Shown: positions 1-64,000 of the stretch, one piece after another | Numbering within the stretch: the stretch's first letter is position 1 | Layout: each line of letters begins with the position of its first letter | Assembly: GCA_001599355.1 (NCBI GenBank) | Contig: BCGQ01000003.1 | Coordinates: forward strand, 374,468 to 438,467 | DNA from: Nakazawaea peltata | Taxonomy: Eukaryota; Ascomycota; Pichiomycetes; Alaninales; Pachysolenaceae | Length of the DNA: 64,000 nt | Direction of reading: 5' to 3' | Program-made: the position numbers and the translations under genes | The notes under the pieces: generated by a model | Told to the model about the DNA's origin: nothing | Databases searched by the model: none | Seen by the model: the letters and a program-made list of their open reading frames with translations, nothing else

Positions 1-2160
1 AAGTTGCCTTCTGCCACTTATGCCTATCAATACCATGCTTTGGGATTGTTGTACCATTTGAGAAATCACGATAGAATGGCATTATCCAAGTTGATCAACT
101 CTTTGAGTAGTTCATCTAGTCCATTGAGAAATTCAATGGCCATTCTTCAATTGATCCGTTACGTTGGTCAAATTATCAAGGAGGATCCAAAATCTGCCAC
201 TTCTTTCTTCCCTGTTTTACAAGGTTATTTGAAGAACAAATCTGATATGGTAGAATTGGAAGCTGCTAAGACTATTTTGGGTGTCAGTTCATTCTCTAGT
301 GAGCAACATTCTAGTGCTATTGCATGCTTACAAGTTCTTTTGACCGTCCCAAGAACTGTCACCAGATTTGCTGCCGTTAGAATTTTGAACAAAATCCTGA
401 TGAAGACTCCAGAGAAAATCGTCATTTGTAACACAGAATTGGAAGGTTTGATCAATGATCCAAATAGATCCATCTCTACATATGCTATTACTACTTTACT
501 TAAGACTGGAAACAACGAGAACGTTGACAGATTGATCAAGGTTATCTCCAAGTTCATGAGTGAAATTTCCGACGAGTTCAAGATCGTTGTTGTTGATGCT
601 ATCAGAAACTTGTCTTTGAAATTCCCAGAGAAATACGAGACTATGTTGAACTTCTTGAACGATTCTTTGAGAGACGATGGAGGATTCACTTTCAAGAACG
701 CAATCGTCGAAGCTTTGTTCGACATGATCAGTTTCATTCCAAAATCGAGAGATACTGCGTTGGAATATTTGTGTGAGTTCATCGAAGATTGTGAATTCAG
801 TGAATTGACCGTTAGAATCTTGTACTTATTGGGTAATGAAGGTCCAAAGACCTCTAATCCAACCTTATATATCAGACATATCTATAACCGTGTGGTTTTG
901 GAGAATTCAATTGTCAGATCTTCGGCCGTCATTGCCTTGTCCAAGTTTGCATTCGTGGGAGATGAGTCCGTATCGAAGAGTATTAAGATTTTATTGGAAA
1001 GATCATTGAATGATGTTGACGATGAGGTTAGAGACAGAGCTACTTTATCATTGAAGTTGATTGCCGAGTCTGAAAAATCCAAATTGGTGAAAGATTTATT
1101 GGTTCCTACCTCTACTTATTCATTGCCAATTTTAGAACAAAAGTTGAGTGCTTATTTGAGTGGTGATAAGGACAGTTTCCAAACTCCATTTGACATTTCT
1201 TCTGTTCCTATTTTGTCAATTGAGGAACTGAAACTGCAAGAATTGAAGAAGAAGAGTGCTGCTATAGAAGTAGAACAAGAGGCTCTGACTTCTGGTGCTG
1301 GTTCTAATGCCGATTCCGAACCAGAAGAGACTAATTATTTGATCAAACAAAGTATGTCTCAACAACAATACTCTCAAGAGTTGGCTGCAATCCCAGATTT
1401 TGCAGAGTACGGCAACTTATTGCACTCTTCTGATATCATTGAATTGACAGAAGCCGAGACCGAGTTTGTCGTCACTGCTGTCAAGCATGTCTTTGCCGAC
1501 CATTTGGTCTTACAATTCAATGTTCATAACACTTTGAATGAGGTTCAATTGCACGATGTATCGGTAGTTGCCCAACCAGACTCAGAGGTTTATCTGGAAG
1601 AATTCATGATGCCTATCGATGTTTTGGCTCCAGAAGCCAAGGGTACCGTTTATGTTTCGTACACTAGACCAGAAGCTGTAGAATTGACATCATTCTCAAG
1701 CACTTTGACCTTTGTATCAAAGGAGATCGACCCATCTACTGGAACAATTGTCGAAGATGACGAAGGATTCCAAGATGAGTATCAAATCGAGGAATTATTG
1801 GTCACCCCAGGTGACTTCATCACTCCTCTCTTTGTACAAGACTTCACTAAGCAATGGGATGAATTCGAGGTCCAAGACTCTGCCATGTTCAATATCACCG
1901 ACTACTCTGATTTACAAGAGCTTGTCACCAGAATTATTTCCTCATTATCGATGCTTCCTATTCAAGGTACCGAAGATGTCAAGGACGGAGCCACTTCTCA
2001 TGCTTTGAAATTGTTTGGTAAGAGCATTGTCAATGGAACTAAGATTGCTGCTCATATCAGATTCGCCGTCAATACTTCCGAAGGTGTTCTTATGATGAAG
2101 GCTGATGTTAGAGGAGAGGACCAAGAGCTTGTTGATGCAGTTTTGGATGGACTTGCTTGA
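1..2160 (+). CDS. SEC21: Coatomer gamma subunit (COPI), 3' part
   Basis: The gene enters from the left edge in frame from base 1, and 719 codons are visible. The yeast protein is about 935 residues, so roughly 200 N-terminal residues lie outside. It is a subunit of the COPI coat that drives Golgi-to-ER retrograde transport. The visible part holds the alpha-helical adaptin-like trunk (motifs such as EGPKTSNPTLYIRHIYNRV and NDVDDEVRDRATLSL, hallmark gamma-COP segments), an acidic linker near residues 415-440, and the C-terminal appendage domain. A CTG at 397-399 falls where gamma-COPs have Ala in the motif LNK(V/I)AMK, which supports CUG-Ala decoding. Identification is from strong recall of the family. 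The true start cannot be seen. Confidence 0.95.
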   Translation, partial: KLPSATYAYQYHALGLLYHLRNHDRMALSKLINSLSSSSSPLRNSMAILQLIRYVGQIIKEDPKSATSFFPVLQGYLKNKSDMVELEAAKTILGVSSFSSEQHSSAIACLQVLLTVPRTVTRFAAVRILNKILMKTPEKIVICNTELEGLINDPNRSISTYAITTLLKTGNNENVDRLIKVISKFMSEISDEFKIVVVDAIRNLSLKFPEKYETMLNFLNDSLRDDGGFTFKNAIVEALFDMISFIPKSRDTALEYLCEFIEDCEFSELTVRILYLLGNEGPKTSNPTLYIRHIYNRVVLENSIVRSSAVIALSKFAFVGDESVSKSIKILLERSLNDVDDEVRDRATLSLKLIAESEKSKLVKDLLVPTSTYSLPILEQKLSAYLSGDKDSFQTPFDISSVPILSIEELKLQELKKKSAAIEVEQEALTSGAGSNADSEPEETNYLIKQSMSQQQYSQELAAIPDFAEYGNLLHSSDIIELTEAETEFVVTAVKHVFADHLVLQFNVHNTLNEVQLHDVSVVAQPDSEVYLEEFMMPIDVLAPEAKGTVYVSYTRPEAVELTSFSSTLTFVSKEIDPSTGTIVEDDEGFQDEYQIEELLVTPGDFITPLFVQDFTKQWDEFEVQDSAMFNITDYSDLQELVTRIISSLSMLPIQGTEDVKDGATSHALKLFGKSIVNGTKIAAHIRFAVNTSEGVLMMKADVRGEDQELVDAVLDGLA

Positions 2161-2336
2161 AAATTGTTTAGAGATTTGTTTAAGAATATAGTAATTAGGA
2201 TAAGCATTGTAGAATGTGTAACTACCAGGAGAACTGTGAATTGAAGGCTCTGATGGGTTTTTGAAATCTGTTGATCGTTTGGTGTTATGATGTTTCGGAT
2301 TAATCCGATTTGCCCCCGATTTGCCCCCTCTCCCCC

Positions 2337-2366
2337 AAATTTTTGCCCCAGCTGAGGCAAAAATTT
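2337..2366. promoter_or_regulatory. Inverted repeat with RRPE-like AAATTTTT arms upstream of RKM1
   Basis: Two perfect 11-bp arms (AAATTTTTGCC and its reverse complement) lie at 2337-2347 and 2356-2366 with an 8-bp spacer, 62 bp before the RKM1 ATG. The arms contain the AAATTTTT core of the ribosomal RNA processing element. The spacer between SEC21 and RKM1 is only 267 bp, so this is the most conspicuous element of the RKM1 promoter. It could also be read as a hairpin. Confidence 0.5.
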
Positions 2367-2427
2367 TTCACCAAACCCAAATTCTTCAGTACTTGTTCAG
2401 TTCGAAGACGTAGTAACCAAGGTAAAG

Positions 2428-4188
2428 ATGAATTGCGAACCTTTAATTCAGTGGGTTAAGTCTCACAATGGGACTGTTAGTGATGCTATCGAGTTTAAAC
2501 AAACACAAGATCGCGGAATTGCCGCTTTTATCACAGGTAAAGTTGATCCATCGCAACTGAATATTAAAATTCCAGTGGAGATCACATTGAATCCTAAGCA
2601 AGCCAAGGAGGAATTCGGCTCGGACTTCTCTAAATGCAAAGATATAAACAGTGTGACCAAGCATTTCTTGAATTACCAACGTTTTTTGAAGGAGAAGAGC
2701 TTCTGGAATGTGTATATTTCACTCCTTCCAGAGGGAGATGAGATCGAATCTCCATTGTATTGGAGCACTGAGGAAAGAAAGTATTTAAGTGGGACAAATT
2801 TGGGGTCTTCTTTCAAAGATATCTTTGAATTGATAGTTGAAGAATGGTATGACTCGTTGAAACTGATCCCAGACAAGTTCAAGTATGAGAATTGTGACGA
2901 GGAAAACTCGGCTTTTTACAAATTGTACCAAGAGAAGGGGGTTGATGATGAAGAGGTCCAGAAACAAATGAGGATCAGAACTGATACCGAGGACAAATGG
3001 CTTGACTTTGCTCATTATCTTTGGGCTACCACTATCTTTAAATCAAGAGCATTCCCATACTTGTTGGTTGACCAAGAGGCCGACCCTCGTTATTCGATGC
3101 TCTTACCTCTTGTAGATTTGTTAAATCACGACCCAGCAAGTTATGTTTCGTGGACTGTAGATGACAAGCAAGAATTCTTCTCGTTCAACAATAATATGAG
3201 TTCCGTGTTGAAACCGGGAGACGAGCTTCTCAATAATTATGGAGGTAAAGGTAATGAAGAATTGTTGTTAGGGTATGGATTTGTCATTGAGAACAACAAA
3301 AATGACAATTTGGCCCTCAGAATCAAGGTCCCAGTTGATGAGTTACCTGAGATCGAGAAATTCGGTATCAAGTTGCCTTCTCTTGAAGACTACTCCACCT
3401 CTGTATATAGTCTTAAGCCTCAAAAGAAGGTTACCGACTACAAGGAGTACCAAAACGGATTGTTATACCTCTGTAACCAGGAGAATATCTTGCCTCGTGA
3501 GTTGGTCAATCTCTTCGCCTATTTAGTGAAGAATGGTATAGAGCAGATGATGTCCCTTAGGATGAGATTAGAGGGGTTAGTACATTTACGTGGGGCTTTA
3601 GAGCTGAAACTTGATTCTTTAGAACTGTCAGCTGAAATTGTTGACACTAACAGTAAACTGCAGAAGGCCAAGATCTACAAGCTGGGCCAACTCAATATCT
3701 TGAAGAAGATGCTCGCAGAACTGAAAGATCAAGAAAAGAGAATTCTCAAGGACCAGAAATCAAAGGTTTGGGATTTGAAAAAAATATTGAAGAAAGACCC
3801 TCTTTTTGCCAATTCATTGCTTTTGACGTTCGGTTTCCAGGATGCCCAAGATATTGCCGACCAAGGTGTCGAAGATCAAATCTTGATCTTATGGATTCTT
3901 CGTTGTGCCAACAGCAGTGCGGCTGAAACCCCTTCGTTCATACAGCCCTTGTTTACCCAATTTAGGGAAAAGATCCCAATAGCCGACGATGAAAAACAAG
4001 CTTTTAGCGAGTTACATCGCTTTTTCTTTCCTCTGCTTTGTGAAAAGATTCCAGAGATTTATGGTGGAGCAGATGGAAAATGGGAGTTGGAAGATATGGT
4101 TGTTGCTGGGAAGGTGATTCAATTCATTAGTTATACTAGAAGTTCGGGAAGTGCTATAATTGTGGAGCCTGTTGCTATCTCTAATTAG
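2428..4188 (+). CDS. RKM1: SET-domain ribosomal protein lysine N-methyltransferase
   Basis: The protein has 586 residues, close to S. cerevisiae Rkm1 (583), which methylates lysines of ribosomal protein Rpl23. The split SET domain shows RAFPYLLV, then LLPLVDLLNHDP, then the diagnostic NNYGGKGNEELLLGYGF block around residues 270-290. This last block carries the substrate and AdoMet-contacting Asn and Tyr residues. A helical Rubis-type substrate-binding half follows, including LKKILKKDPLFA, and the C-terminal segment VIQFISYTRSSGS also resembles the end of Rkm1. The start is the only early ATG, downstream of a short AT-rich leader. Assignment to Rkm1 rather than Rkm2-4 rests on length and these C-terminal blocks. 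Confidence 0.85.
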   Translation: MNCEPLIQWVKSHNGTVSDAIEFKQTQDRGIAAFITGKVDPSQLNIKIPVEITLNPKQAKEEFGSDFSKCKDINSVTKHFLNYQRFLKEKSFWNVYISLLPEGDEIESPLYWSTEERKYLSGTNLGSSFKDIFELIVEEWYDSLKLIPDKFKYENCDEENSAFYKLYQEKGVDDEEVQKQMRIRTDTEDKWLDFAHYLWATTIFKSRAFPYLLVDQEADPRYSMLLPLVDLLNHDPASYVSWTVDDKQEFFSFNNNMSSVLKPGDELLNNYGGKGNEELLLGYGFVIENNKNDNLALRIKVPVDELPEIEKFGIKLPSLEDYSTSVYSLKPQKKVTDYKEYQNGLLYLCNQENILPRELVNLFAYLVKNGIEQMMSLRMRLEGLVHLRGALELKLDSLELSAEIVDTNSKLQKAKIYKLGQLNILKKMLAELKDQEKRILKDQKSKVWDLKKILKKDPLFANSLLLTFGFQDAQDIADQGVEDQILILWILRCANSSAAETPSFIQPLFTQFREKIPIADDEKQAFSELHRFFFPLLCEKIPEIYGGADGKWELEDMVVAGKVIQFISYTRSSGSAIIVEPVAISN

Positions 4189-4406
4189 TGACTAGTATTT
4201 GCAGTTACAGGAATTCCTGGTGCCCCCGGTAACGTTTTTAGTTTATAATATATAGTTTCGTTCTTCATAAGAAGAAGAACTTGGTTGACTGTTATTATTA
4301 TTTAAAGGGTTACACATAGTAAATGTCATTACTTGATCTATGTATTTCATTCTTATCTCACCACTCTTGTATGCAAAAGATTATTTTTTTCTTTGATATC
4401 CTTTAT

Positions 4407-4469
4407 GTTGTCTCACATGTGAGACAACCTATAGTCACTAAGGACTAAAATGTATTGTATAATACATTT
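4407..4469. repeat. Pair of inverted repeats (GTCTCAC half-sites and AAATGTATT arms)
   Basis: Bases 4407-4428 form a perfect 22-bp palindrome centred on CACATGTG, with half-site GTTGTCTCAC. Bases 4448-4456 and 4461-4469 form a second perfect inverted repeat with 9-bp arms AAATGTATT and a 4-bp spacer. A further GTCTCAC half-site occurs on the minus strand near 4495-4501. The arrangement looks like a cluster of dimeric factor sites, or a 3'-end hairpin of RKM1. Confidence 0.6.
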
Positions 4470-4818: not shown

Positions 4819-4826
4819 TATAAAAA
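4819..4826 (+). promoter_or_regulatory. TATA box of the ADH gene
   Basis: TATAAAAA lies 70-77 bp upstream of the ADH ATG, followed by a pyrimidine-rich then A-rich leader. This is the usual layout of a strong yeast promoter and fits the highly biased codon use of the gene. Confidence 0.65.
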
Positions 4827-4895
4827 GAGGATCGTGGAATTATTCAATTTCAATCTTTTAATATTAGTAGTAACAAAACAAGTAGATAATATACA

Positions 4896-5987
4896 ATGTC
4901 TTACCCAGAAGAATTCAAAGGTTTCGGTGTCACTGACACTAAGAACTGGGCCACTCCACACTTGGCCACTTACAAGTCCAAGCCAGTTGAAGATTACGAT
5001 ATCGACATTGAGATCGAGGCCTGTGGTATCTGTTCCTCTGATTTGCACACCATCCAAGGTAACTGGGGTAACCTCAGAAGAAAGGATTTGGTTGTCGGAC
5101 ACGAGATTGTCGGAAAGGTTATTGCTGTTGGTCCAAAGGTCACCAAGCACAAGGTTGGTGACAGAGTCGGTGTCGGTGCTCAAAACCTGTCCTGTTTGGA
5201 CTGTCTGAGATGTTCCCACAACAACGAGAGTTACTGTCTTAAGGGATACGTCTCCACTTACAACAAGCCATTCCCAACTGTTGACTACATCTCTCAAGGT
5301 GGTTACGCTTCTCACCACCGTTGTCACGAGTACTTTGCTGCTAAGATCCCAGAAAACATCGAGTCCAACATTGCTGCTCCATTGCTTTGTGGTGGTTTGA
5401 CCGTCTTCTCCCCATTGAAGAGATCTGGTGTTCTGCCAGGTAAGACTGTCGGTATCGTTGGTATCGGTGGTTTGGGTCACATGGCCATCATGCTTGCCAA
5501 GGCCATGGGTGCTGAGGTCTACGCTTTCTCCAGATCTTCTTCTAAGAAGGAGGAGGCTATCAAGATCGGAGCCGATGGTTTCGTTGCCACTGGTGAATCT
5601 GACGACTGGGAAGTTGCCTTGCAAGACAAGTTCGACGTTATCCTTAACTGTGCCTCTTACACTTCTGGTGTCACTTTAGACAAGTACTTCAAGACCCTTA
5701 AGGTCGACGCCATGTTCGTCACCGTTGGTTTACCATGTGTCGGTGAGAGTTACACTTACGACCCATTCAGTTCTCTTGCTTCTGGTAACGGTATCAAGAT
5801 GTCCAAGTTGGGTTCTATGGCTGAGATGGACGAGATGTTCGAGATCGTCTCTAAGAACAACCTTAAACCTTGGGTTGAGGAGGTTCCATTAACTGCTGAG
5901 AACTTGGGTAACGCTCTTGTTAGATTGGACAAGGGTGATGTTAGATACAGATTCGTCTTGACTGACTTCGACAAGGCTTTCCTGTAA
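4896..5987 (+). CDS. ADH6: NADP-dependent medium-chain alcohol dehydrogenase (cinnamyl-type, ADH6/ADH7)
   Basis: The protein has 363 residues, the usual length for the zinc-dependent cinnamyl alcohol dehydrogenase group, whose yeast members reduce medium-chain and aromatic aldehydes with NADPH. Visible elements are the catalytic-zinc region CGICSSDLHTIQG and GHEIVGKV, and the structural-zinc loop with four cysteines around residues 99-113. The Rossmann glycine motif GIGGLGHMAI follows, then the NADP-type FSRSSSKKEEA. Codons are strongly biased (GGT, GTC, TTG, AAG, AGA), suggesting high expression. CTG codons occur at 5187, 5205, 5433 and at the last codon; several would read well as Ala (GVAPGKTVGI). 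A 288-residue open frame on the other strand is a shadow of this codon bias. Confidence 0.9.
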   Translation: MSYPEEFKGFGVTDTKNWATPHLATYKSKPVEDYDIDIEIEACGICSSDLHTIQGNWGNLRRKDLVVGHEIVGKVIAVGPKVTKHKVGDRVGVGAQNLSCLDCLRCSHNNESYCLKGYVSTYNKPFPTVDYISQGGYASHHRCHEYFAAKIPENIESNIAAPLLCGGLTVFSPLKRSGVLPGKTVGIVGIGGLGHMAIMLAKAMGAEVYAFSRSSSKKEEAIKIGADGFVATGESDDWEVALQDKFDVILNCASYTSGVTLDKYFKTLKVDAMFVTVGLPCVGESYTYDPFSSLASGNGIKMSKLGSMAEMDEMFEIVSKNNLKPWVEEVPLTAENLGNALVRLDKGDVRYRFVLTDFDKAFL

Positions 5988-14268: not shown

Positions 14269-15591
14269 CTAATTAAAACCGGTGAAATATCTCTCTCTAA
14301 AGTTATTCACCTCTCCCCGCTCTGATCTGGTTATCGTCACGCCCTTGTAATCGCGATCCCGTTTGACGTAACATAATAACCGCCGTGACCATTTGTTGAA
14401 TTGCTGCACCAAGTTGTATTTCAACTCGAGATTTTCATGTTGAGGAATGTTGGTCAGCTTAAAATTGTCATTTGCTGTAGGCATCCAGAAACACAATCTG
14501 CCTCCGACGGGTAATCTATCAGCGGCGAACTTGAGAAGGTCATCGAGTAACAGATCTAATTCGTATGGTTTCTTAGGCTGAATGTAGTCTCTTCTTAAGT
14601 AGGCTTTCTCACCATCGATCACCACGTTCTCTCTACCTTCACTTTTCTCGCTATTTTTGGCTCCACATACTTTCAATCCTTCTCTGACTCCATAAGGTGG
14701 GTCACATACAATACAGTCGATTACAAAGTCGCTGCGGAATGCATTGTTGGTGAAATCCATAGTTAAAAGATCACCAAAGTAACGTTGGGTGCCATATTTC
14801 TTGAAATTCGAAGGAATGGTAGCTTTACCTTTACCTCTTAACATGCGTACATCGATATCAGATCCAAATGTCAAAGCTCCGAAATAGGCTCCAGCTACAA
14901 GGAAACTACCAGTCCCATTGAACGGATCATACATGATTTTACCTGGTGATACTTGGGCAATATTACATGAAATCATCGAAAGTTCAGCGTCAAATGACGT
15001 CGTGCCAATATATGGTCTCTTTCTCAAATCATACTTATCAACAATATTGTCGTAAATACGAGGACCCAACTGCACCTGTCTTGCAAGCCATATATGCTGA
15101 GGAATCGTAGGTTTAGGCTGCTGACTTGGAATAATCTCCTCATATTCTTCCAAAAATACAAAGATCTCGTCGGCCTTCTTCATCCTGATAGGACCTTTGA
15201 AATCCAAGAAACCGAATTTCTCAATAATATCCACCATCTCCTGCTGAGTTTGTCTACTACCTTGATACCCAACGAACTCAAACTTGAAAGAGATAGAATC
15301 GTCTTGATATCTGTCCCAATATTGAGCACTTTCTTGTCTAACACTCAGTTCTAACAGATCAAGATCATTTCCGTGACCCCAAAGTTCATATATCCCTCTT
15401 GCCAAAATACTCTTACGAACCAACTTACGAGCTTCCTCGTCATCCTTCAATTCCACTACAAGGAAGGGGTTATGCTCATCATGCGCTGAGAAATCACACT
15501 GAATACCATGCGCATCCAGTAAGGATTCGAGCTCAGCTTTCCGGAACCCAGTATGTGACTGTGCTAAGTACAAAAGATACTTCTTACTCAT
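14269..15591 (-). CDS. TRM11: tRNA (guanine-N2) methyltransferase catalytic subunit
   Basis: The protein has 440 residues (yeast Trm11 is 433) and, with Trm112, makes m2G10 in tRNA. The N-terminal THUMP-like region begins MSKKYLLYLAQSHTGFRKAE, a family signature. The Rossmann methylase part shows KRPYIGTTSFDAELS and the AdoMet loop YDPFNGTGSFLVAGAYFG. The catalytic CDPPYGVREG and the C-terminal FNKWSRRLLCYVKR then NFRERYF follow. A CTG at 14551-14553 lies where yeast Trm11 has Ser (LDSLLDDLL), so Leu is not the family residue there. An AAAATTTTT tract and CTCATC lie just upstream. Confidence 0.95.
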   Translation of the reverse strand: MSKKYLLYLAQSHTGFRKAELESLLDAHGIQCDFSAHDEHNPFLVVELKDDEEARKLVRKSILARGIYELWGHGNDLDLLELSVRQESAQYWDRYQDDSISFKFEFVGYQGSRQTQQEMVDIIEKFGFLDFKGPIRMKKADEIFVFLEEYEEIIPSQQPKPTIPQHIWLARQVQLGPRIYDNIVDKYDLRKRPYIGTTSFDAELSMISCNIAQVSPGKIMYDPFNGTGSFLVAGAYFGALTFGSDIDVRMLRGKGKATIPSNFKKYGTQRYFGDLLTMDFTNNAFRSDFVIDCIVCDPPYGVREGLKVCGAKNSEKSEGRENVVIDGEKAYLRRDYIQPKKPYELDLLLDDLLKFAADRLPVGGRLCFWMPTANDNFKLTNIPQHENLELKYNLVQQFNKWSRRLLCYVKRDRDYKGVTITRSERGEVNNFRERYFTGFN

Positions 15592-16144: not shown

Positions 16145-17641
16145 ATGTCTAATTTAAGTGATGACGAGGGTCTTTTCGACGACATCTACGGAGAAGATGA
16201 AGTTGAACAAAAGCAAGAGCTGACTCCACAAGAGACAACTACCGCCACTAGTGCTGAACCGAGTGATCTGCAACAGCTGTCTGAAACACTGGCAGATTCT
16301 CTGCTTCCACCTCCTCCACCTCCACCTCCACTGGATGGGTCTGGTGTGCAACCACCTCAGCCTCCACAAGATAACTCTTTGGATCCTACCTTGTTACAAA
16401 GATTGCAAGAACAGCTGCAAGAGCAAGTTATGCAACAGGTTCAAAGACAGAAGGCTTCTTTGGAGAGTGATGCTTCTAAGATGTTCATTGGAGGGTTACA
16501 TTGGGACACCAATGAGGATTCTCTTAGAGATCACTTCAGTAAGTACGGTCATGTTGTAGAAGTCACGATCATGAGAGATCCAGCCACTAGTAAGTCTAGA
16601 GGGTTCGGATTCCTCACTTTTGCCGAGGCTAGAAGTGTTGACGAGCTGCTTAAAGAGAGTCATGAGTTGGACGGTAAGTTAATTGACCCAAAGAGAGCCA
16701 TTCCAAGAGAAGAACAAGATAAAACCGGTAAGATTTTTGTCGGAGGAATCTCTCCAGATGTTACCGAGCAAGAATTCTATAACTATTTCCAACAATATGG
16801 TGATATCATTGATGCTCAATTGATGATCAACAAAGATACTGGTAAATCTCGTGGATTTGGGTTTGTCACTTACGACTCGCCTGATCTGGTTGACCGTGTT
16901 ACCGAGAACACTTTTGTAATGTTTAAAGGACGTAAAATGGAGATCAAAAGAGCTAATCCTAGAGGTCACCAAAATAGCGGTAGTAATAGTAAATTCTATC
17001 AACAACAGCAATATCAATCTGGTCAGCCAGGCATGGGTAATGCCGAGGCGATCCAAAGTCAATTCGGTCTCAATCCTGAGATGGCTCAGCAATATTGGCA
17101 GCAGATGCAGCAATATTTCATGCAGCAGATGCAACAACAATATGCTGCTAATGGAATGGCCATGGACCCTGCTATGCTGCAACAATTCCAATATATGCAG
17201 CAGCAGATGCAACAGGGACAATACCCTGATCAGGAGCAACAGCAGTATGGAGAAAACCAACAGGTTCCAAATATCCAAGCTGATGATAGCCAAGATCAAG
17301 ATCAGGACCAAGTAGTTAATATCCAACAGCAACAGCAATTTGATAATTTGCCAAGAGAGCCAAGAAGAATCCAACAGATGAAGGATATTCCAAAAGCTCC
17401 AAGAGGTCCAAGAGGTGACTCCTTTGGTGGACGTGACTATAACGGAGGTAGAGGTGACTACAACGGAGGTAGAGGTGATTACAACGGAGGAAGAAGAGAG
17501 TATAGCGGAGGAAGAAACGACTACAACGGAGGTAGAAGTGACTACAACGGGGGAAGAGGTGGAAGAGGTGGAAGAGGCCGTGGAAGAGGTGGAAGAGGCC
17601 GTGGAGATAGCGGATTCCATCCTTATTCCCGCAGAAAATGA
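16145..17641 (+). CDS. HRP1: Cleavage factor IB subunit, two-RRM hnRNP-like RNA-binding protein
   Basis: The protein has 498 residues counted from the ATG at 16145; a longer frame opens only with TTG. It is a 3'-end processing and mRNA export factor that shuttles between nucleus and cytoplasm. An acidic and Pro-rich leader precedes RRM1 (KMFIGGLHWDTNEDSLRDHF, then SRGFGFLTF) and RRM2 (KIFVGGISPDVTEQEF, then SRGFGFVTY). They are joined by the linker RAIPREEQDKTG, almost identical to yeast Hrp1. A Gln/Met-rich region follows, then seven RGDYNGG-like repeats and RGG boxes, and the tail FHPYSRRK resembles the PY nuclear localisation signal of Hrp1. CTG at 16886-16888 lies at the Ala of the yeast motif SADAVDRV. 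A 313-residue antisense frame is a shadow of the repeats. Confidence 0.96.
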   Translation: MSNLSDDEGLFDDIYGEDEVEQKQELTPQETTTATSAEPSDLQQLSETLADSLLPPPPPPPPLDGSGVQPPQPPQDNSLDPTLLQRLQEQLQEQVMQQVQRQKASLESDASKMFIGGLHWDTNEDSLRDHFSKYGHVVEVTIMRDPATSKSRGFGFLTFAEARSVDELLKESHELDGKLIDPKRAIPREEQDKTGKIFVGGISPDVTEQEFYNYFQQYGDIIDAQLMINKDTGKSRGFGFVTYDSPDLVDRVTENTFVMFKGRKMEIKRANPRGHQNSGSNSKFYQQQQYQSGQPGMGNAEAIQSQFGLNPEMAQQYWQQMQQYFMQQMQQQYAANGMAMDPAMLQQFQYMQQQMQQGQYPDQEQQQYGENQQVPNIQADDSQDQDQDQVVNIQQQQQFDNLPREPRRIQQMKDIPKAPRGPRGDSFGGRDYNGGRGDYNGGRGDYNGGRREYSGGRNDYNGGRSDYNGGRGGRGGRGRGRGGRGRGDSGFHPYSRRK

Positions 17642-18147: not shown

Positions 18148-19791
18148 ATGAGCGAACCAGAAGATATGGGACGCAGAGGACTGGCCGAGTTGGGCCCTAC
18201 AGAAGTATTTGAAAACACCCTCGCTGGAGGGGTTAGAAGCTCTCGTTATAGCCACTCATCGGCGGTATCAGGACTGGTTAATATGGTACTGGTGAGCAGA
18301 GCTTCGGTGGATGATAAAGAGGAGAAGGAGAAGCCGGGGGAATACCATGAGGATCGTGTTAGTTTCTCTGGTTCGGAAGGTGATCTGTCGAGATTGGATC
18401 GTTTCAGGGCTATGCTGAGGAAATACATGAGCTTTATTGGCCCGGGGATAATGGTCAGTGTCGCCTATATGGACCCAGGTAACTATGCCACTTCTGTCAG
18501 TGGAGGTGCCTCCAATGAATATTCTTTGTTATTCGTTATTTTGTTGGCCAGTTTAATGGCTTGTTTCTTCCAAGTGTTATGTATCAAGTTGGGTTCTGTC
18601 ACTGGTGCTGACTTGTCAAAGAACTGTTATAGACACTTACCATGGTGGCTCAATATTGTCTTGTGGATCTTAGCTGAATGTGCTATCATTGCTACTGATG
18701 TAGCAGAAGTCATCGGTACGGCTATTGCATTGAATATCTTGTTGAAGATCCCGTTACCGGCTGGTGTCGTCTTGACCGTCACCGATGTCTTCTTCGTGTT
18801 GATGCTGTATAGACCGGGATCATCGTTGAGATTTGTCCGTGTGTTCGAGTACTTTGTCGCAGCTTTGGTCATTACTGTCATTGTCTGTTTCTGTGTAGAG
18901 CTTGCCTTCTTACCAAAGACCAATATAGCTCATATCATGCGTGGGTTTGTTCCTTCAAAACAAATGTTCGATGACGGAGGTGTATATACTGCTGCTGCCA
19001 TTTTAGGTGCCACAGTCATGCCTCATTCCATGTTCTTGGGTAGTGGTTTGGTCCAACCAAGATTAAGAGATTATGATATCAAACATGGCTACGTTGCTTT
19101 GGGTCAGAATCTGGAAGAAAATGAAGAACAATACTACTCTTATAAACCTAGTTTAGCAGCTATTAAGCATTCGCTCCGTTATTCGATCATCGAGTTGACT
19201 GTCACCTTGTTAACCTTCGCCTTATTCGTCAACTCGGCTATCTTGATCGTCGCTGGTACTACCTTATATGGAACAGAGGAAGCTATCGATGCTGATTTAT
19301 ACACTATCTATGATTTGATTTCGCAGACCATTGCCCCTGCTGCTGCTACTGTATTCATGGTGCTGTTACTTTGTTCAGGTCAAAGTGCCGGTATCGTTTG
19401 TACTATTGCTGGTCAAATAGTCTCGGAAGGGCATATCAACTGGAAAGTTCGTCCATGGTTGAGAAGAATCATCACTAGATCCATTGCTATCCTTCCATGT
19501 TTGGCTATTTCTGTCTCTATTGGTAAAAACGGTTTAGGTAAGCTGTTGAATGCCAGTCAAGCCATCTTGTCCTTCTTGTTACCCTTCCTCACCGCACCTT
19601 TGATCTACTTCACTTGCAGTAAAAAGGTGATGACCTTGGGTCTGCAAGAGGTACAAGACGGAGAGACCGAGCCAAAGAGCATTCATATGGCCAACGGCTG
19701 GATCAGCACCATATGTGCAGTTGTCATTTGGATCTTCCTTAGTGTCTTGAACATTTATGCGATTTATCAAGTAGCTAAGGATGGACTTTAA
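18148..19791 (+). CDS. SMF1: NRAMP divalent metal ion transporter
   Basis: The protein has 547 residues from the ATG at 18148; a longer frame opens only with GTG. It moves Mn2+ and other divalent metals with protons. The metal-binding DPGN of TM1 is present in SVAYMDPGNYATSVSGGA, and the TM6 motif ATVMPHSMFLGSGLVQPR and the transport signature SGQSAGIVCTIAGQIVSEG are intact. About 11-12 hydrophobic segments follow a hydrophilic N-terminus. Close resemblance to yeast Smf1 (KLGSVTGADLS and DVAEVIGTAIALNILLK) favours SMF1 over SMF2 or SMF3. CTG at 19363-19365 and 19543-19545 lie at positions that are Ala in yeast Smf1 (FMLALLLSGQSAG, SKALNASQ). Confidence 0.93.
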   Translation: MSEPEDMGRRGLAELGPTEVFENTLAGGVRSSRYSHSSAVSGLVNMVLVSRASVDDKEEKEKPGEYHEDRVSFSGSEGDLSRLDRFRAMLRKYMSFIGPGIMVSVAYMDPGNYATSVSGGASNEYSLLFVILLASLMACFFQVLCIKLGSVTGADLSKNCYRHLPWWLNIVLWILAECAIIATDVAEVIGTAIALNILLKIPLPAGVVLTVTDVFFVLMLYRPGSSLRFVRVFEYFVAALVITVIVCFCVELAFLPKTNIAHIMRGFVPSKQMFDDGGVYTAAAILGATVMPHSMFLGSGLVQPRLRDYDIKHGYVALGQNLEENEEQYYSYKPSLAAIKHSLRYSIIELTVTLLTFALFVNSAILIVAGTTLYGTEEAIDADLYTIYDLISQTIAPAAATVFMVLLLCSGQSAGIVCTIAGQIVSEGHINWKVRPWLRRIITRSIAILPCLAISVSIGKNGLGKLLNASQAILSFLLPFLTAPLIYFTCSKKVMTLGLQEVQDGETEPKSIHMANGWISTICAVVIWIFLSVLNIYAIYQVAKDGL

Positions 19792-23301: not shown

Positions 23302-24543
23302 TCAAAAATCCTCAAAGAAGTTAGCATATGGATCTTCACAAATAATACCATAGTCCAATCTCTCCTCTGGATAATGATCAAATAAGGAGGAGTCACCGAC
23401 ACCAGCAGTGATAGGAGGCTCATAAGGAGTCTCGATGTCTTTCATCAACAACTTGTCCCAGACAACCTCGCTGAACCAGGCATGGTTTCTGATATCGGCA
23501 GGACCGTTGTGCAAGTTACCTAATCTTCTGGAAAGATCGGAGGTGATCAATTTGCTCAACAAATCAACCAGGTCTGGGTGCATGTGAGATGGGTAGTGGA
23601 CTTTACCGGCCAAGATTTTCTCGTAAGTCTTCATTGGAGTTTGGTCATAGAATGGGGTGTATCCGGCCAACATTTCAAAGATCAAGATACCCAAAGACCA
23701 CCAATCTACAGATTTGTTGTATGGTTTGGTAGTGATCACTTCTGGAGCGATATAATCCGGGGTACCACACAAGGTCCAAGTTACGGTCTCCACTTCTTTG
23801 GCGAATCCAAAGTCTGTCAACTTTATGTGACCATTTCTGTCCAAAAGAATGTTTTCTGGTTTCAAATCTCTGTAGATGATGTTGTGAGAGTGTAAATACT
23901 CTAAAGCCAAGGTCACTTCGGCAGCGTAGAATTTCAGTACCGGATTTGGGAATCTTTGGGACTTTCTCAACAAGGAGAACAATTCACCACCTTCTATGTA
24001 ATCCATAACCATGAATAAATTTCTGGAATCTTGGAAAGTACCCCACATTCTGATCAAAAATGGGTGCTCCACCAATTTCAACATACGTCTCTCATCGTTT
24101 GTGTGCTCTACTTGTTTCATTCTGACAACTTGGGCCTTCTTCAACACTTTGATGGCGTAATATCTGTTGTTATGGACCGATTTAACCAAGTGAACACGAC
24201 CGAAGGATCCGGTACCCAAAGTTCTCATGATATGGAAATCTTTTAAAGAGTATTTACCCTTAGAAACGGTCGACCTTTGAGGTAATAAAGACTGTTGTAC
24301 CATGTTTGAAGTCTGCGGGATGGCCTGTTGTTGCTGAGAATGCAAAGTGATCGGCTGCGGCGATGGCGTGGCCGCTATAGGCTTCAGTTGCAGGTCCAAT
24401 TGATTCGGATATTGCATCTGAGGTGCGGATTGTTGATAGTTCATTGTGTTCTCCAGATTTGGTTCGTCTGCTTGAGTGGACAGCAGCGGCAGCGGTTGAT
24501 TGTTATGAGAAAGATGCAATTTATTCAAAAGCCGCGACCTCAT
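23302..24543 (-). CDS. cAMP-dependent protein kinase catalytic subunit (TPK family)
   Basis: The protein has 413 residues from the first ATG at 24543; the frame continues a little upstream only to a TTG. It is the PKA catalytic subunit that carries cAMP signals for nutrients and growth. A Gln-rich N-terminal extension of about 90 residues precedes the kinase domain. Visible motifs are the glycine loop GTGSFGRV, catalytic YRDLKPEN (Asp226), TDFG (Asp244), activation loop [15 protein letters not shown] (Thr257 the expected phosphosite), and the C-terminal tail ending in ANFFEDF. CTG at 23935-23937 (residue 203) lies in FPNPV-x-KFYAAEV, where yeast Tpk proteins have Ala. Which of TPK1, 2 or 3 it corresponds to is not decidable. 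Confidence 0.95.
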
Positions 24544-25232: not shown

Positions 25233-28067
25233 TTACCGTCTCTTCTTAGATGGACGGGCATTCTTTTGTCTTCTCTTATCCTTTTGTTCTCTTTGCTTCC
25301 TAATCTCCTCAGTAGATCTCATCTCATTCTTAAGTCCAGGTTTATTGAATCCCTTGACACGAACACCAGCTTCCATCAGTTTCTCAACCTTCTTCTTTTG
25401 CTTCTCGTAATCATCTCTGTTTTTGTCAGGTAATTTCGGCAGTTTCATCTTACTATGTTTGAATCTACCTCCACTTAATCTGTCAAGAGCATTACTTTGC
25501 TTACCACTTGGTCCTCCAACACCCAGAACACTTTCACTGGCTCCTACACGCATGTTACCAATTTTCTTAGCATCTTTCCAGGCATCGAATCTTCCAGATC
25601 TGAAGGTCAGAGGAATCTTCTGTCCACTTTCACCGATAATATACTTAACATCGGTCGATTTCGAGTTAATATATTTGCCCTTCTTCTTATCCCATTTCAT
25701 GGTTTGAGTAGACAGTTTTTGGACCCTAACCTTGTCGTCATCATCCAAATCGAAAGTGGCCTTGGATGCCTCATTGATGAAAGAGGGGTTATCGAGAGCC
25801 AATTGCTTGTCTTGGATCACATTTGTAGGAGCATAATGAGACATATAAAAGTTAGGATCTCTGTATGATTTTTTGCTCTTTTTATTAGAAGCTTCCAAAA
25901 CAGCATCTCCATCTTCAAATGATTCTAGTAATTCATTATCATTTACGGTATTATATCCAACTTCATGACTATCTCCCTTCAAAATTTCATCTTCAATCGA
26001 GTGGGTCAAACCTGCCATTCTCTCCTTCTCTAAAAGTTCCTTTCTTTCCTTCTCTCTCAGTTGAACAACGGCCAATTGCCTTCTTCTTTTATTCATTAAA
26101 CTAATCATGGACTCATTCTGTTGTCCGAATTCGAAAACGGTCTCTTTAGAGTTTCTGTGTTGAAGTTTCTCCAAGAAATCCAATTTCTCCAGCTCTAAGT
26201 TCTTTCCAAACAAAATGTTCTGGTCATACCAGCCAGCTGCTGTGATCTCTTTGGCTCTTTTTACAGACTCTTGAGAAGCTGCTGTTCTCGTTCTGAAATA
26301 CAATTTCTCACCTTTAGATGCAACTCCTTGTAATACTTTCAATTCATAGTCGTTTTTCAATAAATTGTCGAACATTTCCTGGAAAGTCTCGACATCTGCT
26401 CTTGGAGCAGCTCCTAAAACAAGACGTTCAGTATAAGAGACCTTTGGATCGTTAGGGATACCGTTGTTCTGTTGCTTAATAAGCTCACATTTACGTTCAT
26501 GCATGCTGGTTAACAAGATTTTTTTACCTAAGAACAACTCAAGGTCAAGTAAATATGGTAACTCAGCAGCATCTACAATGGAATAAGCCCAACCTTTATT
26601 ACCAGCTCTTGCAGTACGACCTACTCTGTGAATGAAAATCTTAGAAGAAGCAGGTAAAGAGTAGTTGATAACGTTGGCCAAGACAGGAATATCGATACCT
26701 CTTGCGGCAACGTCCGTGACTACAAGTAAATGACTGAGACCCAATCTGAAGTTGAGTAATTGACGCTTTCTGGCATATTGGTCTAACGAACCATAGATAT
26801 ACGAGACTGCGAAACCTCCTAACCTTAATAATTTAGTGATATATTCTACATGATGTCTGGTTGGGACGAAAACAATTGTCGAGTATTCAGAAGGTAACTC
26901 TGTTGCACTTGGCAATTTCCCAACTCTTTTCTTTGATCTGTGCTTTCTCTTTTTCTTGTTATCGTCATTATCGTCAGCATCTTCATCGGAAGAATCGGTC
27001 AGATTGTTGGCATCTTCCAATTTCTTCAATTCTTGTTCACTAGCTACGGGGATTTTAATGACCTCTTGAACAAGGTTCAATAAGTTGGCCTCACGTTCAT
27101 TATTCTTGGAGGAAATGAAAGCCATTTCTAAGTTTTCGGAGATCTTGGTTTCCAGATCCAATCTTACAAGAACAGGATTATTCAAACCGGCTTTGGCAAA
27201 ATCAACTAAAGACCTTGGTAAAGTGGCAGAGAATAATAAAGATTGTCTTGAAGAAGGTAACAGGGCAATTAACTCATTCAATTGTTCCAGGAAACCCATT
27301 TCAAAAAGACGGTCGGCTTCATCAAAGACTATATATTCTACGGTTTTCAAGTCCAAGTTCATTTCGACTTTTAAATGCAAGAAACGACCTGGAGTCGCTA
27401 TGACTACGTCAGGGTTACTCATCATGGAACCAAATTGGTCCTCCAAAGAGTCACCACCGATAAGCAAGATGGATCTTAAATCGGTTCCTCTTGAGAATTC
27501 TTTGAATTGTCTATAAGTTTGGATGGCCAATTCTCTGGAAGGAGATAAAATGACCAGTCTGACACCGATCTTGGCAGAATGAACCTTCAATCTCTCGACT
27601 AAAGGTAACAAAAACAGGGCCGTTTTACCCGAACCTGTTCTTGCCATACCCACTACGTCTCTATTACTCAAAATCAAAGGAATTGTCTTTCTCTGGATCG
27701 GAGTTGGTTGTTTATAACCTTTCTTAGCGATGTTTGTTAACAAGAATTTGGATAAACCAAAAGAAGCAAATGAGCCAGCCTTGGCCTTCTTTTTGGTTTC
27801 AGCGGAGACATTGGTGAAATACTCGGCCATATCATTCAAGGTGTCTTTCTTATTGTCGTCCAATTCCAAAGATGGGAATGCCTTGTCCTGTGTCTTCAGT
27901 TTCTTTGGTTTTGGAGCTTCCAGCTCATCGTCGGAAGAGTCCGATAAGATCTCATCTTGGACGTTTTCATTGTCGGATTCTTCATCGGAACTTGAGATTT
28001 CCGAGTCACTTGTGTTGATTGCGATATTGGCGGCGATATCGTATTCTTCTTCGTCGCTTGAAGACAT
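25233..28067 (-). CDS. DBP10: DEAD-box ATP-dependent RNA helicase of 60S ribosome assembly
   Basis: The protein has 944 residues (yeast Dbp10 is 995) and is a nucleolar helicase of pre-60S particles. After an acidic Ser/Asp-rich N-terminus come the Q motif (GYKQPTPIQRKTIP), Walker A (ARTGSGKTA), VFDEADRLFEMGF, the SAT motif (LLFSATLP) and HRVGRTARAG. The Dbp10-specific C-terminal half follows, with KETVFEF, EKERMAGLTHSIEDEILKG, YIIGESGQKIP and the end ARPSKKRR, all close to the yeast protein. CTG at 27615-27617 falls in GKTA-x-FLLP, where the DEAD-box family almost always has Ala (GKTAAF). CTG at 27261-27263 lies at a yeast Ser. The upstream region has two AAAATTTTT tracts and GATGAG repeats. 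Confidence 0.97.
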   Translation of the reverse strand: MSSSDEEEYDIAANIAINTSDSEISSSDEESDNENVQDEILSDSSDDELEAPKPKKLKTQDKAFPSLELDDNKKDTLNDMAEYFTNVSAETKKKAKAGSFASFGLSKFLLTNIAKKGYKQPTPIQRKTIPLILSNRDVVGMARTGSGKTALFLLPLVERLKVHSAKIGVRLVILSPSRELAIQTYRQFKEFSRGTDLRSILLIGGDSLEDQFGSMMSNPDVVIATPGRFLHLKVEMNLDLKTVEYIVFDEADRLFEMGFLEQLNELIALLPSSRQSLLFSATLPRSLVDFAKAGLNNPVLVRLDLETKISENLEMAFISSKNNEREANLLNLVQEVIKIPVASEQELKKLEDANNLTDSSDEDADDNDDNKKKRKHRSKKRVGKLPSATELPSEYSTIVFVPTRHHVEYITKLLRLGGFAVSYIYGSLDQYARKRQLLNFRLGLSHLLVVTDVAARGIDIPVLANVINYSLPASSKIFIHRVGRTARAGNKGWAYSIVDAAELPYLLDLELFLGKKILLTSMHERKCELIKQQNNGIPNDPKVSYTERLVLGAAPRADVETFQEMFDNLLKNDYELKVLQGVASKGEKLYFRTRTAASQESVKRAKEITAAGWYDQNILFGKNLELEKLDFLEKLQHRNSKETVFEFGQQNESMISLMNKRRRQLAVVQLREKERKELLEKERMAGLTHSIEDEILKGDSHEVGYNTVNDNELLESFEDGDAVLEASNKKSKKSYRDPNFYMSHYAPTNVIQDKQLALDNPSFINEASKATFDLDDDDKVRVQKLSTQTMKWDKKKGKYINSKSTDVKYIIGESGQKIPLTFRSGRFDAWKDAKKIGNMRVGASESVLGVGGPSGKQSNALDRLSGGRFKHSKMKLPKLPDKNRDDYEKQKKKVEKLMEAGVRVKGFNKPGLKNEMRSTEEIRKQREQKDKRRQKNARPSKKRR

Positions 28068-55726: not shown

Positions 55727-55750
55727 GGTGCGCGGGACAACAAAGGGGGT

Positions 55751-59463: not shown

Positions 59464-59661
59464 TGTGCGGTTCTCAGCTCTCCAAACCTCTCTGTTCGAC
59501 TCACCTCTGTCACTTTGTAGGTGAGAGGCAGCGCGGATGTACGAGATTACTGTTTTGGGATAGATTTGTTTCGTTTTGGTGTATTTTTCCTGATTGGGTA
59601 TCAGAGTTGCCTAAATGGGAAAACTACAGAAGGGGGTGATAAAAGGGGGTAATAAATCCAT

Positions 59662-62136
59662 TTAAAGTTTGACTTCGGTACCTATGAATAACACTTCTTG
59701 GTCATCGGAGACGTGAAGGTTTTTGTGGTGATCTTGGAATAAGTTGTTCAACGGAGCGAAGACTTGTTCGATCACGAAAGATCTAATGTAGATTCCCAGC
59801 TTCACAAAGAAACCTTTAGTCTTGTTTTGGGTCAGATATTCGTTCACTTTGTACAGGAACCTGTCCAGAGTGACTATTTCCCTTTCGAAGATATGTAAGA
59901 CAGGAGTGGAGAGTCTTCCATCTGGCTGCATATAGGATCTTTTGAGTGTTTCATCGAATTGAACATCTTCTTCATCGATCTCACTTATCTTTGCTCTGGC
60001 AAGAATCTCTGATACAATTTCGTTGTCAATATTGACTTTGTCCATGAATCCAAATCTGACAATACACCTGTGGAATCCTGGCATTTGTCTCATTGGTTCG
60101 ATAACGACTCTTTCGTGGCTGGAGACATAAGGCACAGGTGCCACTCTTATACCTAAGAAGACAAAATCTTCAGGGATCAGAGGGAACGATGTGATTATAT
60201 GTTTGAATTGAGCCGGAACTGTGTTTGGCGAGTTCAATGTGTGCATCACATTAGTAAACATGATTGCAACACCACTATATCTATTAACTCTGACATTATC
60301 ACCTCCTGGCATAATTGCTACAAGAGGTTCAGTGGATTCTAATGAGGTCTGATCAGATTCTGGGACTCTGTTAATGATCGAACGATCAATTTGAACCGTC
60401 ATTGGAACCGGTGCTTTTCTCTTGAAAATGTCTCTCAATCTAACTCTGTCATTGTATTCTTGTTTGATCTTCAAACTTCTGCACCATCTCCAGAACCAAA
60501 TGAAAGAGAACATAAGAACTGTCATCATCAATGGGAACCAAGCACCATGAGGAACCTTTTTCAACCCTGCAATCACCATACAAAGATCAAGAGCACCAAT
60601 AGCCAAGTAAATGAATATACAAAGGAAGATGTTTGCTCTGTAGACATATAATAAGCAAAGTGTGATCAAGTTGGTGGTAACGAAGAAGTCCATGGCAACA
60701 CCCAAACCATAAGCAGCTGTGACATTGGCCGAAGTTTGGAAACCAACAGCAGTCAAGATTACCAGTATCATTAAAATGAAGTTGATAGCTGGCATGAAGA
60801 TCAGACCGTGGTTCTTTGGATTCAAATATACAATCTTGAATTTTGGGAAACAGTCAATCAGGATTAATTGCTTCAAGATTGAGAAAACACCAAGGATAAG
60901 AGCCTGAGACGCAATAATCGTAGAAAGTGTAGCAATAACGAAGATGAACCAATAAAGACCTCCATTGGTTCCACCTGGAATAGAAAGATAGAACACATTC
61001 GAATATGCTTCAGGGTGTACGATCAAATATGCACATTGTCCCAAATATGCGAGCATCAAAAGAGGGTAAACAAACATACCCAAAGTCAACTGAACAGATG
61101 TTTGAGAGAAGTGACCAATGTCAGCAAACATCAGTTCAGTACCGGTGATAGCAAGCATGACGGAACCCAAAGGATCGATGTCACCCTGTCTTCTCAAGTA
61201 GTAGATCAGCTCAGCTGGATTCAAAGCCTTAAAAATAGCAGGGTGTAAACGGATGTTGATAATTCCTATAACCAGGATAGAGACCAACCACGTAAAAATA
61301 ATAGGAGCGAAGCTGAAGGAAATCTTCAGAGATCCAAATACTTGGATCAGAAATAAAACGACGAAAATGGCACAAGAGACTGGTAATACACTATCGAAGG
61401 ATGGAACCAGGACACCAATACCATCGACAGCAGACAAAACTGAAGTGGTTGGTGTTAACAAACCATCACTCATAACCAACCCACACCCAACAAAACAAAG
61501 GGCCATGATAACAGTTGATAATACTCTGTTAACAAATGTCTCATTGAAGATAAATCCCTTTTTGGAGTTCGAGGATGACAGAGTTGACATATGGGTTTCT
61601 GATCTGGTGATAAGCAACATGTCATCCATTTCCTTTTCTCCCGGTAACTTAACACCTTCAGGACCAATCTTCAAAGTTCTAGCAATTTTGGCATAAATAG
61701 CGATCTGACCACCTTCTCCATTATTTGGACCAAATTGTAAAACAATAAGACAGTATTTAAAGATAACAACCAAGGTGAAAATCCAAAAGATACACGACAT
61801 TGCACCGTAAAGATCTTCTTTACTTGGTTCTCCATCAGCAAAGATTGTGCTGACTGTATAAAGTGGAGAGGTTCCAATATCACCATAAATGGAACCCAAA
61901 CTCATAAAACTGAGATATAAGGTATGGGACCATTTATTAGAAGATTTTCTAGGACTCTCACCCTTGTAGCTGCCAGTATGTTTTGGAGTTAAATCTTCGA
62001 TATCACGTTCAACATCGAATTCACCAGACAGAATTGAATCTGCTGCTCCTATATCAGTTTCCATGGCGTAAGAGGATGAATCAACGGTATGGTCGGCTAT
62101 ATTCAGGTCTTTTTTGAATATGTTTTCGTTATTCAT
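59662..62136 (-). CDS. HAK1: High-affinity potassium transporter, HAK/KUP family
   Basis: The protein has 824 residues from the ATG at 62136; the preceding codon of the frame is GTG. It imports K+ with protons at low external K+; S. cerevisiae lacks this family but many other yeasts have it. Family motifs are SLGSIYGDIGTSPLY, NGEGGQIAIYAKI, VMSDGLLTPTTSVLSAVDG, AITGTELMFADIGHFS and AYGLGVAMDFF, with about 12 membrane segments to residue 520. A hydrophilic C-terminal domain follows. A 1.3-kb upstream region suggests complex regulation. Confidence 0.94.
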   Translation of the reverse strand: MNNENIFKKDLNIADHTVDSSSYAMETDIGAADSILSGEFDVERDIEDLTPKHTGSYKGESPRKSSNKWSHTLYLSFMSLGSIYGDIGTSPLYTVSTIFADGEPSKEDLYGAMSCIFWIFTLVVIFKYCLIVLQFGPNNGEGGQIAIYAKIARTLKIGPEGVKLPGEKEMDDMLLITRSETHMSTLSSSNSKKGFIFNETFVNRVLSTVIMALCFVGCGLVMSDGLLTPTTSVLSAVDGIGVLVPSFDSVLPVSCAIFVVLFLIQVFGSLKISFSFAPIIFTWLVSILVIGIINIRLHPAIFKALNPAELIYYLRRQGDIDPLGSVMLAITGTELMFADIGHFSQTSVQLTLGMFVYPLLMLAYLGQCAYLIVHPEAYSNVFYLSIPGGTNGGLYWFIFVIATLSTIIASQALILGVFSILKQLILIDCFPKFKIVYLNPKNHGLIFMPAINFILMILVILTAVGFQTSANVTAAYGLGVAMDFFVTTNLITLCLLYVYRANIFLCIFIYLAIGALDLCMVIAGLKKVPHGAWFPLMMTVLMFSFIWFWRWCRSLKIKQEYNDRVRLRDIFKRKAPVPMTVQIDRSIINRVPESDQTSLESTEPLVAIMPGGDNVRVNRYSGVAIMFTNVMHTLNSPNTVPAQFKHIITSFPLIPEDFVFLGIRVAPVPYVSSHERVVIEPMRQMPGFHRCIVRFGFMDKVNIDNEIVSEILARAKISEIDEEDVQFDETLKRSYMQPDGRLSTPVLHIFEREIVTLDRFLYKVNEYLTQNKTKGFFVKLGIYIRSFVIEQVFAPLNNLFQDHHKNLHVSDDQEVLFIGTEVKL

Positions 62137-63446
62137 CACTGTAAAGCGCGGAGGGGTGATTTTTAATAAAAAAAAATAGCAGTTGGTGGGCTGATTTGAG
62201 CTGTTTGAAGTATATCAATAGATAGATAATTAACTACAGAGAGACGAAGACGATTAGAGGATGTTTAAAGGGTATTTATATTTACAGTGCTGAGTTTTCG
62301 AATTTTGGGGGGGAGAGGGGTTAGTATTGCAGAAAAATTTTCGAAAGAGGGATACAACAATATTTTGGTGCGCTAGTAAAAACACTTTTTTTTTGCGTGC
62401 GCCAGTACTATGAACAGTGTTGCGGCCTCAGTGTGAGGCTGGAAAAAGGTGTCACATGGGGAGCCGTTCATCCAGTTGAAACTGTAACTGGTTAGGGGAA
62501 CAGATCGAGTTCTCCTACTTACTAAAATCACTCAACCCAGGCGAGCTCAAAAATTACGTAATTGTTTTGTTCAAGTAGAGATCTCGAGACTATTCCCATT
62601 GTCCCAAAGCTTCAAAATGCACAGTAAGGCTATGTCCCTGGCGAGGTGCGCAAGGTGGAACGAAAATTTTTAAATGAATGTCAGAAATTACACTGTGAGA
62701 ATTTTAGTTTACTCTGAGGGATTTTTGGGAGGTGAGGTTTTTTTTTTTTTTTTGGTTTTTGCGTAGAGGTTTGCAAATTTTCTTGGGTATTTTTTTATTT
62801 GTGCAGCAGATTCCGCTGCGCGAGACGTTCCAGTTTAGGATTAATTTGAGTGACGAATTTCCTTGAGTAGCGAAAGTCAAGCATTGACTATTGTTTGCGT
62901 TCAAGAATTTACTATAAACGAAGATTTGATTACACGGAGATGGACGAGGTGAAGGTGCGGGATTTATGAAATAGCATGAGGTACATTTCAGCGTCTTGGT
63001 TGTGTGGTTGGCTTCTTCAAGATTATTTTGAAATTTATTTTGTTGTCGAGTCGTCGAAAGGTGTCTCGAGATTTGTTCAATTTTAATGTTGGGGGGTGTG
63101 TGAATCCCCTCGGTGTTTCCCCTCGCAGATAGTTTTTTTTTCCGTTTCGAACCTGTGTGTTATGTTTTGTTTTCCTCTTTTTTTGTTTAGAAATGATTTT
63201 CCACAAGTATCGAGCAACTAACTGATTTTTGATATTCGTAGTTTGCTCATGAAGGATGACCTGGTGTTACGAGGTAAAGATGAGATGTCTAAATATATGT
63301 ATTAAATGCAGATAATGATGCGAGTTTGGTGTAAATCTAGAGAGAGAGCATTATTGTTTGAGGTCTATGAGATGATATTGCGTATTAGTGTTGTTTTTCA
63401 GTACGATCTCTTGTTCTATTATTGACCTCTTTGTTTGTAAGATTTT
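62137..63446 (-). promoter_or_regulatory. Long intergenic region upstream of HAK1
   Basis: This is the longest gene-free stretch, 1,310 bp. It contains a GTAAAGCGC element directly before the HAK1 ATG (62141-62149), AAAAATTTTCG near 62333, and a T16 run (62738-62753). Other short features include GTGCGC(C/T)AGTA twice, near 62370 and 62399. On the minus strand TACTAAC (about 62321-62327) and GTAAGT (about 62514-62519) could belong to a 5' UTR intron, but the evidence is thin. No coding region stands out. Confidence 0.45.
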
Positions 63447-64000
63447 TCATTTCAAGTTCTTGACTTTCTTAGTGGATTTGGTTGACTTCTTTTGTTTCTT
63501 TTCAACTTTACTAGACTTGATTTTGTTCTCTGTCAGTTTCTTGTCTTTCTTCTCCTTCTTCTCTTTCTTCTCTTTCTTCTCCTTCTTCTCCTTCTTCTCC
63601 TTCTTCTCCTTCTTCTCTTTCTTCTCTTTCTTCTCCTTCTTCTCACTCTTGTCTGTCTTCAATTTCTTCTTCTCATTCTTGTCCGTCTTCAGTTTCTTCG
63701 GTTTCTTCTCCTTCTTCACCTCCTCATCTCCAATCTTTCTCTTCAACGACTTCCTAATCAACTCATCTGTAACCATAACACTGGTCACCACCTTCTGCTT
63801 AACTTGTAACTGATCAGTATTTCCAACTGTCCCTGCTAACCCCTCTCCCTTCACAAACATCTTATACAAAGGAGATTCATTTTCTTTCATTCCACTAACC
63901 TTCACCTCATTCTGTTTAAAGGTGATATCAGTACTAGACAGCATCACATCCAACCCTTTCAACTGCCCATCAAATACTCTCTCCCACCATGCATCTCCAT
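63447..64000 (-). CDS. TMA23: Nucleolar ribosome biogenesis protein Tma23, 3' part
   Basis: The frame runs off the right edge, so the start is outside. At the edge it reads GDAWWERVFDGQLKGLDV, the signature that follows the G-patch in Tma23-type proteins, then a central variable part and a Lys/Glu-rich tail with about 11 KKE units coded by a 9-nt repeat. Tma23 is a nucleolar protein with a role in ribosome assembly. About 184 codons are visible. The alternative is another small G-patch protein, but WWERVFDGQLKGLDV is characteristic. Confidence 0.8.
   Translation of the reverse strand, partial: GDAWWERVFDGQLKGLDVMLSSTDITFKQNEVKVSGMKENESPLYKMFVKGEGLAGTVGNTDQLQVKQKVVTSVMVTDELIRKSLKRKIGDEEVKKEKKPKKLKTDKNEKKKLKTDKSEKKEKKEKKEKKEKKEKKEKKEKKEKKEKKEKKDKKLTENKIKSSKVEKKQKKSTKSTKKVKNLK
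63550..63648. repeat. 9-bp coding repeat (KKE), 11 copies
   Basis: Eleven units of TTCTC(C/T)TTC run without interruption, each coding Lys-Lys-Glu on the minus strand inside TMA23. C/T variation is silent. The opposite strand stays open as Phe/Ser- or Leu-rich shadows. Confidence 0.95.

Follow-up and report, generated by a model that had tools for sequence, protein, structure and literature searches.

Alanine as the most likely meaning of CUG in a yeast placed beside Pachysolen, and the tRNA(CAG) gene that would decode it

A yeast clade in which CUG is translated as alanine (Pachysolen, Nakazawaea and Peterozyma) has already been published, with a CAG tRNA of its own and data from mass spectrometry, and that account traces the tRNA to a tRNA-Ala that underwent an anticodon mutation (PMC5951914). 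The same account covers the CUG-Ser codes (Ser1 in the Candida group, Ser2 in Ascoidea and Saccharomycopsis), in which, as appears to be the case in the yeast studied here, the same codon has been reassigned and is read by a CAG tRNA (PMC5951914). Nuclear sense-codon changes are very rare, and each extra genome with its tRNA helps to test the route by which CUG came to mean alanine; translation under the standard code would also put a wrong residue at every CTG of this organism's proteins. The CUG-Ala code, which we take to be NCBI table 26, is therefore not new in itself, and the present yeast is a further member.

The window, by which we mean the whole stretch of 64,000 nucleotides analysed here (G000:C3:374468-438467), comes from a genome assembled into 11 contigs that total 11,631,020 bases. 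It contains 264 in-frame CTG codons, spread over 27 of its 32 ORFs. Their frequency is 16.0 per 1000 codons, a figure for those 27 ORFs of the window only, whereas CUG is described as relatively rare in code-changed clades in PMC5951914. In the same window ORFs the values per 1000 codons are 9.0 for GCA, 3.0 for GCG, 10.0 for CTC and 2.5 for CTA. We consider it very probable that the window belongs to the nuclear genome of a CUG-Ala clade yeast, and that CUG is read by an alanine-charged tRNA(CAG) encoded elsewhere in the genome. That CUG stands for alanine, as the first-pass annotation of the window had proposed from CTG codons at conserved alanines, is the most likely reading because the column scores, the presence of a tRNA(CAG) with the alanine marks G3:U70 and A73, and the DBP10 tree all point to it. 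Three ORFs of the window were used for the column scores:

25233..28067, minus strand, DBP10 helicase ORF, 15 CTG codons, 13 of the 15 scored
59662..62136, minus strand, HAK1-type potassium transporter ORF, 17 CTG codons, 14 of the 17 scored
51123..52706, plus strand, HNM1-type choline permease ORF, 7 CTG codons, all 7 scored

HAK1 and DBP10 were picked for their high number of CTG codons, and HNM1 was the counter-example named in the first-pass annotation. For each family the best 120 homologues were taken and the two nearest dropped, leaving 118 to be aligned; these six nearest homologues (two per family) were excluded because their own reading of CTG is in doubt. CTG was entered as X in the query before alignment, full reading frames were used for the column counts, and 34 of the 39 CTG codons were kept after columns with more than 30% gaps had been discarded. 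Summed over the 34 columns, alanine scored +19.3 bits, serine -26.3 bits and leucine -50.7 bits, and the tabulation of CTG columns that had been suggested at the outset thus favours alanine over leucine and serine in these three families. As a control, the procedure was applied to the 54 other codons with at least five columns, and it gave the standard amino acid for all 54. When the CTG columns were resampled 1000 times, alanine came top in 993. Other leucine codons scored leucine in this test (CTT +75.8, CTC +17.5, TTA +177.2 and TTG +197.8), with CTA represented by a single column. One residue accounted for at least 80% in ten of the 34 CTG columns, and this residue was alanine in eight, arginine in one and glutamine in one. 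These column statistics are direct observations, and we conclude that the preference for alanine exceeds chance, given its lead of 70 bits over leucine and the 54/54 controls.

Taken singly, HAK1 (14 columns) and DBP10 (13 columns) each pointed to alanine, and in this respect, pooled and in two of the three families singly, the yeast resembles the Ala clade. HNM1 alone (seven columns) did not decide the matter, its best four residues being threonine (-2.5), leucine (-2.7), glutamate (-2.7) and serine (-4.6), with alanine outside them. Against the alanine reading, the mean share of alanine was 0.333 at CTG columns compared with 0.543 at GCN columns. The individual codons that bear most directly on alanine are as follows:

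27615, 27555, 25608, 25440 and 25377, minus strand, CTG codons of DBP10, columns above 80% Ala
27153, minus strand, CTG codon of DBP10, column about 80% Ala (0.80, just below the cut used in the count of columns at or above 80%)
61408, 61207 and 61132, minus strand, CTG codons of HAK1, columns above 80% Ala
397..399, plus strand, CTG codon of SEC21, Ala in the sole coatomer gamma-1 chain found
16886..16888, plus strand, CTG codon of HRP1, opposite Ala in 2cjk (Hrp1) and Pro in the hnRNP D-like chain (two chains listed)
19363..19365, plus strand, CTG codon of SMF1, Ala in 4/4 NRAMP chains listed, three of them near-copies
23935..23937, minus strand, CTG codon of the PKA catalytic subunit, Ala in 5/5 chains listed

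Seven alanine sites had been named in the first-pass annotation, and five of them are borne out here. DBP10 27615 has an alanine weight of 1.00 (rounded) among 118 homologues; SEC21 397, PKA 23935 and SMF1 19363 lie opposite alanine in every chain listed for them, and HRP1 16886 does so in the Hrp1 chain, though not in the second. The remaining two fell away, as SMF1 19543 lies opposite leucine in 4/4 chains listed (no yeast SMF1 among them) and KRI1 32190 opposite glutamate in the single KRI1 chain. When the DBP10 CTG codons were compared with solved chains, several sites were opposite alanine. The first-pass annotation also named sites with other residues. At DBP10 27261, proposed as serine, serine is present (0.41) but alanine is commoner (0.57); at SMF1 18805, proposed as threonine, valine or isoleucine is opposite; and at HNM1 51378, said to favour leucine, the column reads F 0.29, C 0.22, L 0.13 and S 0.12.

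Other sites speak against alanine, namely DBP10 25713 (Q 0.99), 26058 (R 0.90) and 26190 (K 0.78) and HNM1 51480 (Y 0.70) and 52251 (L 0.54, T 0.36), each among 118 homologues. HNM1 52251 had not been singled out in the first-pass annotation. We did note that at DBP10 25713, 26058 and 26190 and at HNM1 51480 the CTG sits on a column that is strongly Gln, Arg, Lys or Tyr. In comparisons with solved chains, HRP1 16646 is opposite valine in 2/2 chains listed, and SEC21 1594 and 1234 are opposite glutamate and methionine, respectively, in the coatomer gamma-1 chain. The alcohol dehydrogenase CTG codons at 5187, 5205 and 5433 are opposite Ser/Phe, Gln/Asp and Asp/Gly, respectively, in three chains of which two are one protein. 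For TRM11, whose CTG at 14551 had been proposed as serine, no solved chain matched at E 1e-20.

The genome was searched with a pattern made up of the alanine acceptor marks and the anticodon CAG, which gave a single match:

G000:C4:81426-81498 (L092:1501-1573), outside the window, tRNA gene with anticodon CAG

G3:U70 and A73 were demanded by the pattern and hence follow from the search, which does not, however, account for the complete cloverleaf or for the terminator. It can be seen that all stems are paired except at 6:67 and 13:22, both of which are U-U, that 3:70 is G-U, that position 73 is A, that the molecule has A35, G37 and a five-base variable loop, and that a T run follows the gene. 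ARAGORN reports a tRNA at C4:81426-81498 with anticodon cag, labelled tRNA-Leu from its anticodon. With a short stretch as input, Rfam gave 50.9 bits (cut-off 29), but no hit was listed when the entire 3 kb locus was scanned. The leucine label and this empty scan count against the alanine reading. A DNA search of the genome with the tRNA(CAG) returned this one copy only. The gene and its cloverleaf are observed directly, and the CAG tRNA with G3:U70 for which the first-pass annotation had advised looking is present in the genome. Its alanine identity marks are a likeness to the Ala clade. The yeast differs from the CUG-Ser codes in two ways: the columns fit alanine and not serine, and the variable loop of the tRNA(CAG) has five bases as against the long arm of tRNA-Ser.

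Alanyl-tRNA synthetase is anticodon-independent according to PMC5951914, and would need no particular anticodon base here. G3:U70 and A73 should lead this enzyme to charge the tRNA(CAG) with alanine, and the charged tRNA would then decode CUG. We infer that the tRNA(CAG) is expressed, that it is charged with alanine, and that alanine is the residue in the proteins.

No leucine- or serine-type CAG tRNA was found by pattern searches of the genome, which can miss variants, or by ARAGORN on the fetched loci. The search for competitors was aimed at tRNAs with the anticodon CAG; a tRNA-Leu(TAG) might also read CUG by wobble. A tRNA-Leu(AAG) is present in the genome. A first broad CAG pattern gave 131 matches (part of them listed) against 121 for the reversed control, and a match that it returned repeatedly is a tRNA-Tyr with an intron according to ARAGORN. 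Another CAG pattern gave 32 matches against 29 in the control; the matches were assessed by visual inspection, and the five that were fetched were also analysed with ARAGORN. Two candidate loci, L093 and L094, contain no tRNA by ARAGORN.

A tree of DBP10, a single gene, was built from the query with CTG masked and 21 homologues hand-picked from the best 120. The query grouped with one database relative and Pachysolen (support 95/94), and this observed position upholds the earlier placement of the organism in the Pachysolen group and is a further likeness to the Ala clade. The nearest database relatives are P0122 for DBP10 (76% identical), P0242 for HNM1 (78%) and P0002 for HAK1 (57%). P0002 has leucine at HAK1 61132, where the column is 96% alanine in the other homologues; if its sequence is a standard translation of CTG, its organism may share the code.

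Three other readings of CUG have to be weighed against alanine. Under the standard code the alanine sites would have arisen by chance, and leucine can be pointed to at HNM1 52251, at HAK1 61348 (L 0.34) and at PKA 23569 (leucine in four and valine in one of the five chains listed). However, leucine lies 70 bits under alanine in a test in which CTT, CTC, TTA and TTG all score leucine, and we regard this reading as extremely improbable. A serine code like that of the Candida group or Saccharomycopsis appears just as implausible to us: serine has the second-best score and ranks first at HAK1 60178 and 59866, but it remains 45.6 bits under alanine, pattern searches of the genome gave no serine-type CAG tRNA, and the organism lies beside Pachysolen in the DBP10 tree.

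A mixed reading, in which CUG is mainly alanine with a fraction of leucine from occasional loading of the single tRNA(CAG) by leucyl-tRNA synthetase, is unlikely, though less remote than the other two. Yeast leucyl-tRNA synthetase also uses A35, G37 and A73, bases that would attract it; the tRNA(CAG) has all three, and some leucine loading is therefore possible. In Candida albicans about 3% of tRNA-Ser(CAG) is loaded with leucine, which PMC5951914 attributes to G37. Against such a mixture, leucine is the commonest residue in 2/34 CTG columns compared with at least 5/142 GCN columns (from the five commonest residues per codon), and there is thus no clear surplus of leucine sites.

The source of the tRNA(CAG) bears on whether capture of CUG required an anticodon change alone. 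The molecule was compared arm by arm, leaving out the anticodon loop, with 21 further tRNAs from the genome. Over the body of the molecule, identity was highest with tRNA-Val(TAC) (49/66), followed by Ala(AGC) (46), Gln(TTG) (42) and Ala(TGC) (42). Thus, among the tRNAs compared, the closest whole-molecule relative is tRNA-Val(TAC), unlike the tRNA-Ala origin given for the Ala clade in PMC5951914. The acceptor arm shares 11/15 positions with Ala compared with 9 with Val, and the D arm with its neighbours 17/19 with Val(TAC) compared with 13 with Ala; the D arm of Val(AAC) differs. The variable loop is identical to that of Ala and that of Met, Ala(AGC) and Glu are equally near in the T arm, and Val(TAC) and Glu are equally near in the anticodon stem. 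The tRNA(CAG) combines an Ala-like acceptor arm with a D arm closest to tRNA-Val(TAC). In a tree of 20 tRNAs, union with Ala (p-AU 0.265), Val(TAC) (0.325) or Gln (0.328) was in no case rejected. It is conceivable, but in our view doubtful, that the gene did not arise by an anticodon change in tRNA-Ala but descends from one resembling tRNA-Val(TAC), with G3:U70 and A73 acquired later, or else is a Val/Ala mosaic. If either were true, alanine would have taken over CUG by way of a newly gained identity pair on the body of a foreign tRNA.

In the survey of tRNAs in the genome, 63 of 608 candidates were scored. Three loci, L068, L069 and L070, have intron sequences that differ, and are labelled by ARAGORN as stop or unknown tRNAs; from their sequence we would read them as tRNA-Lys(CTT) genes with introns.
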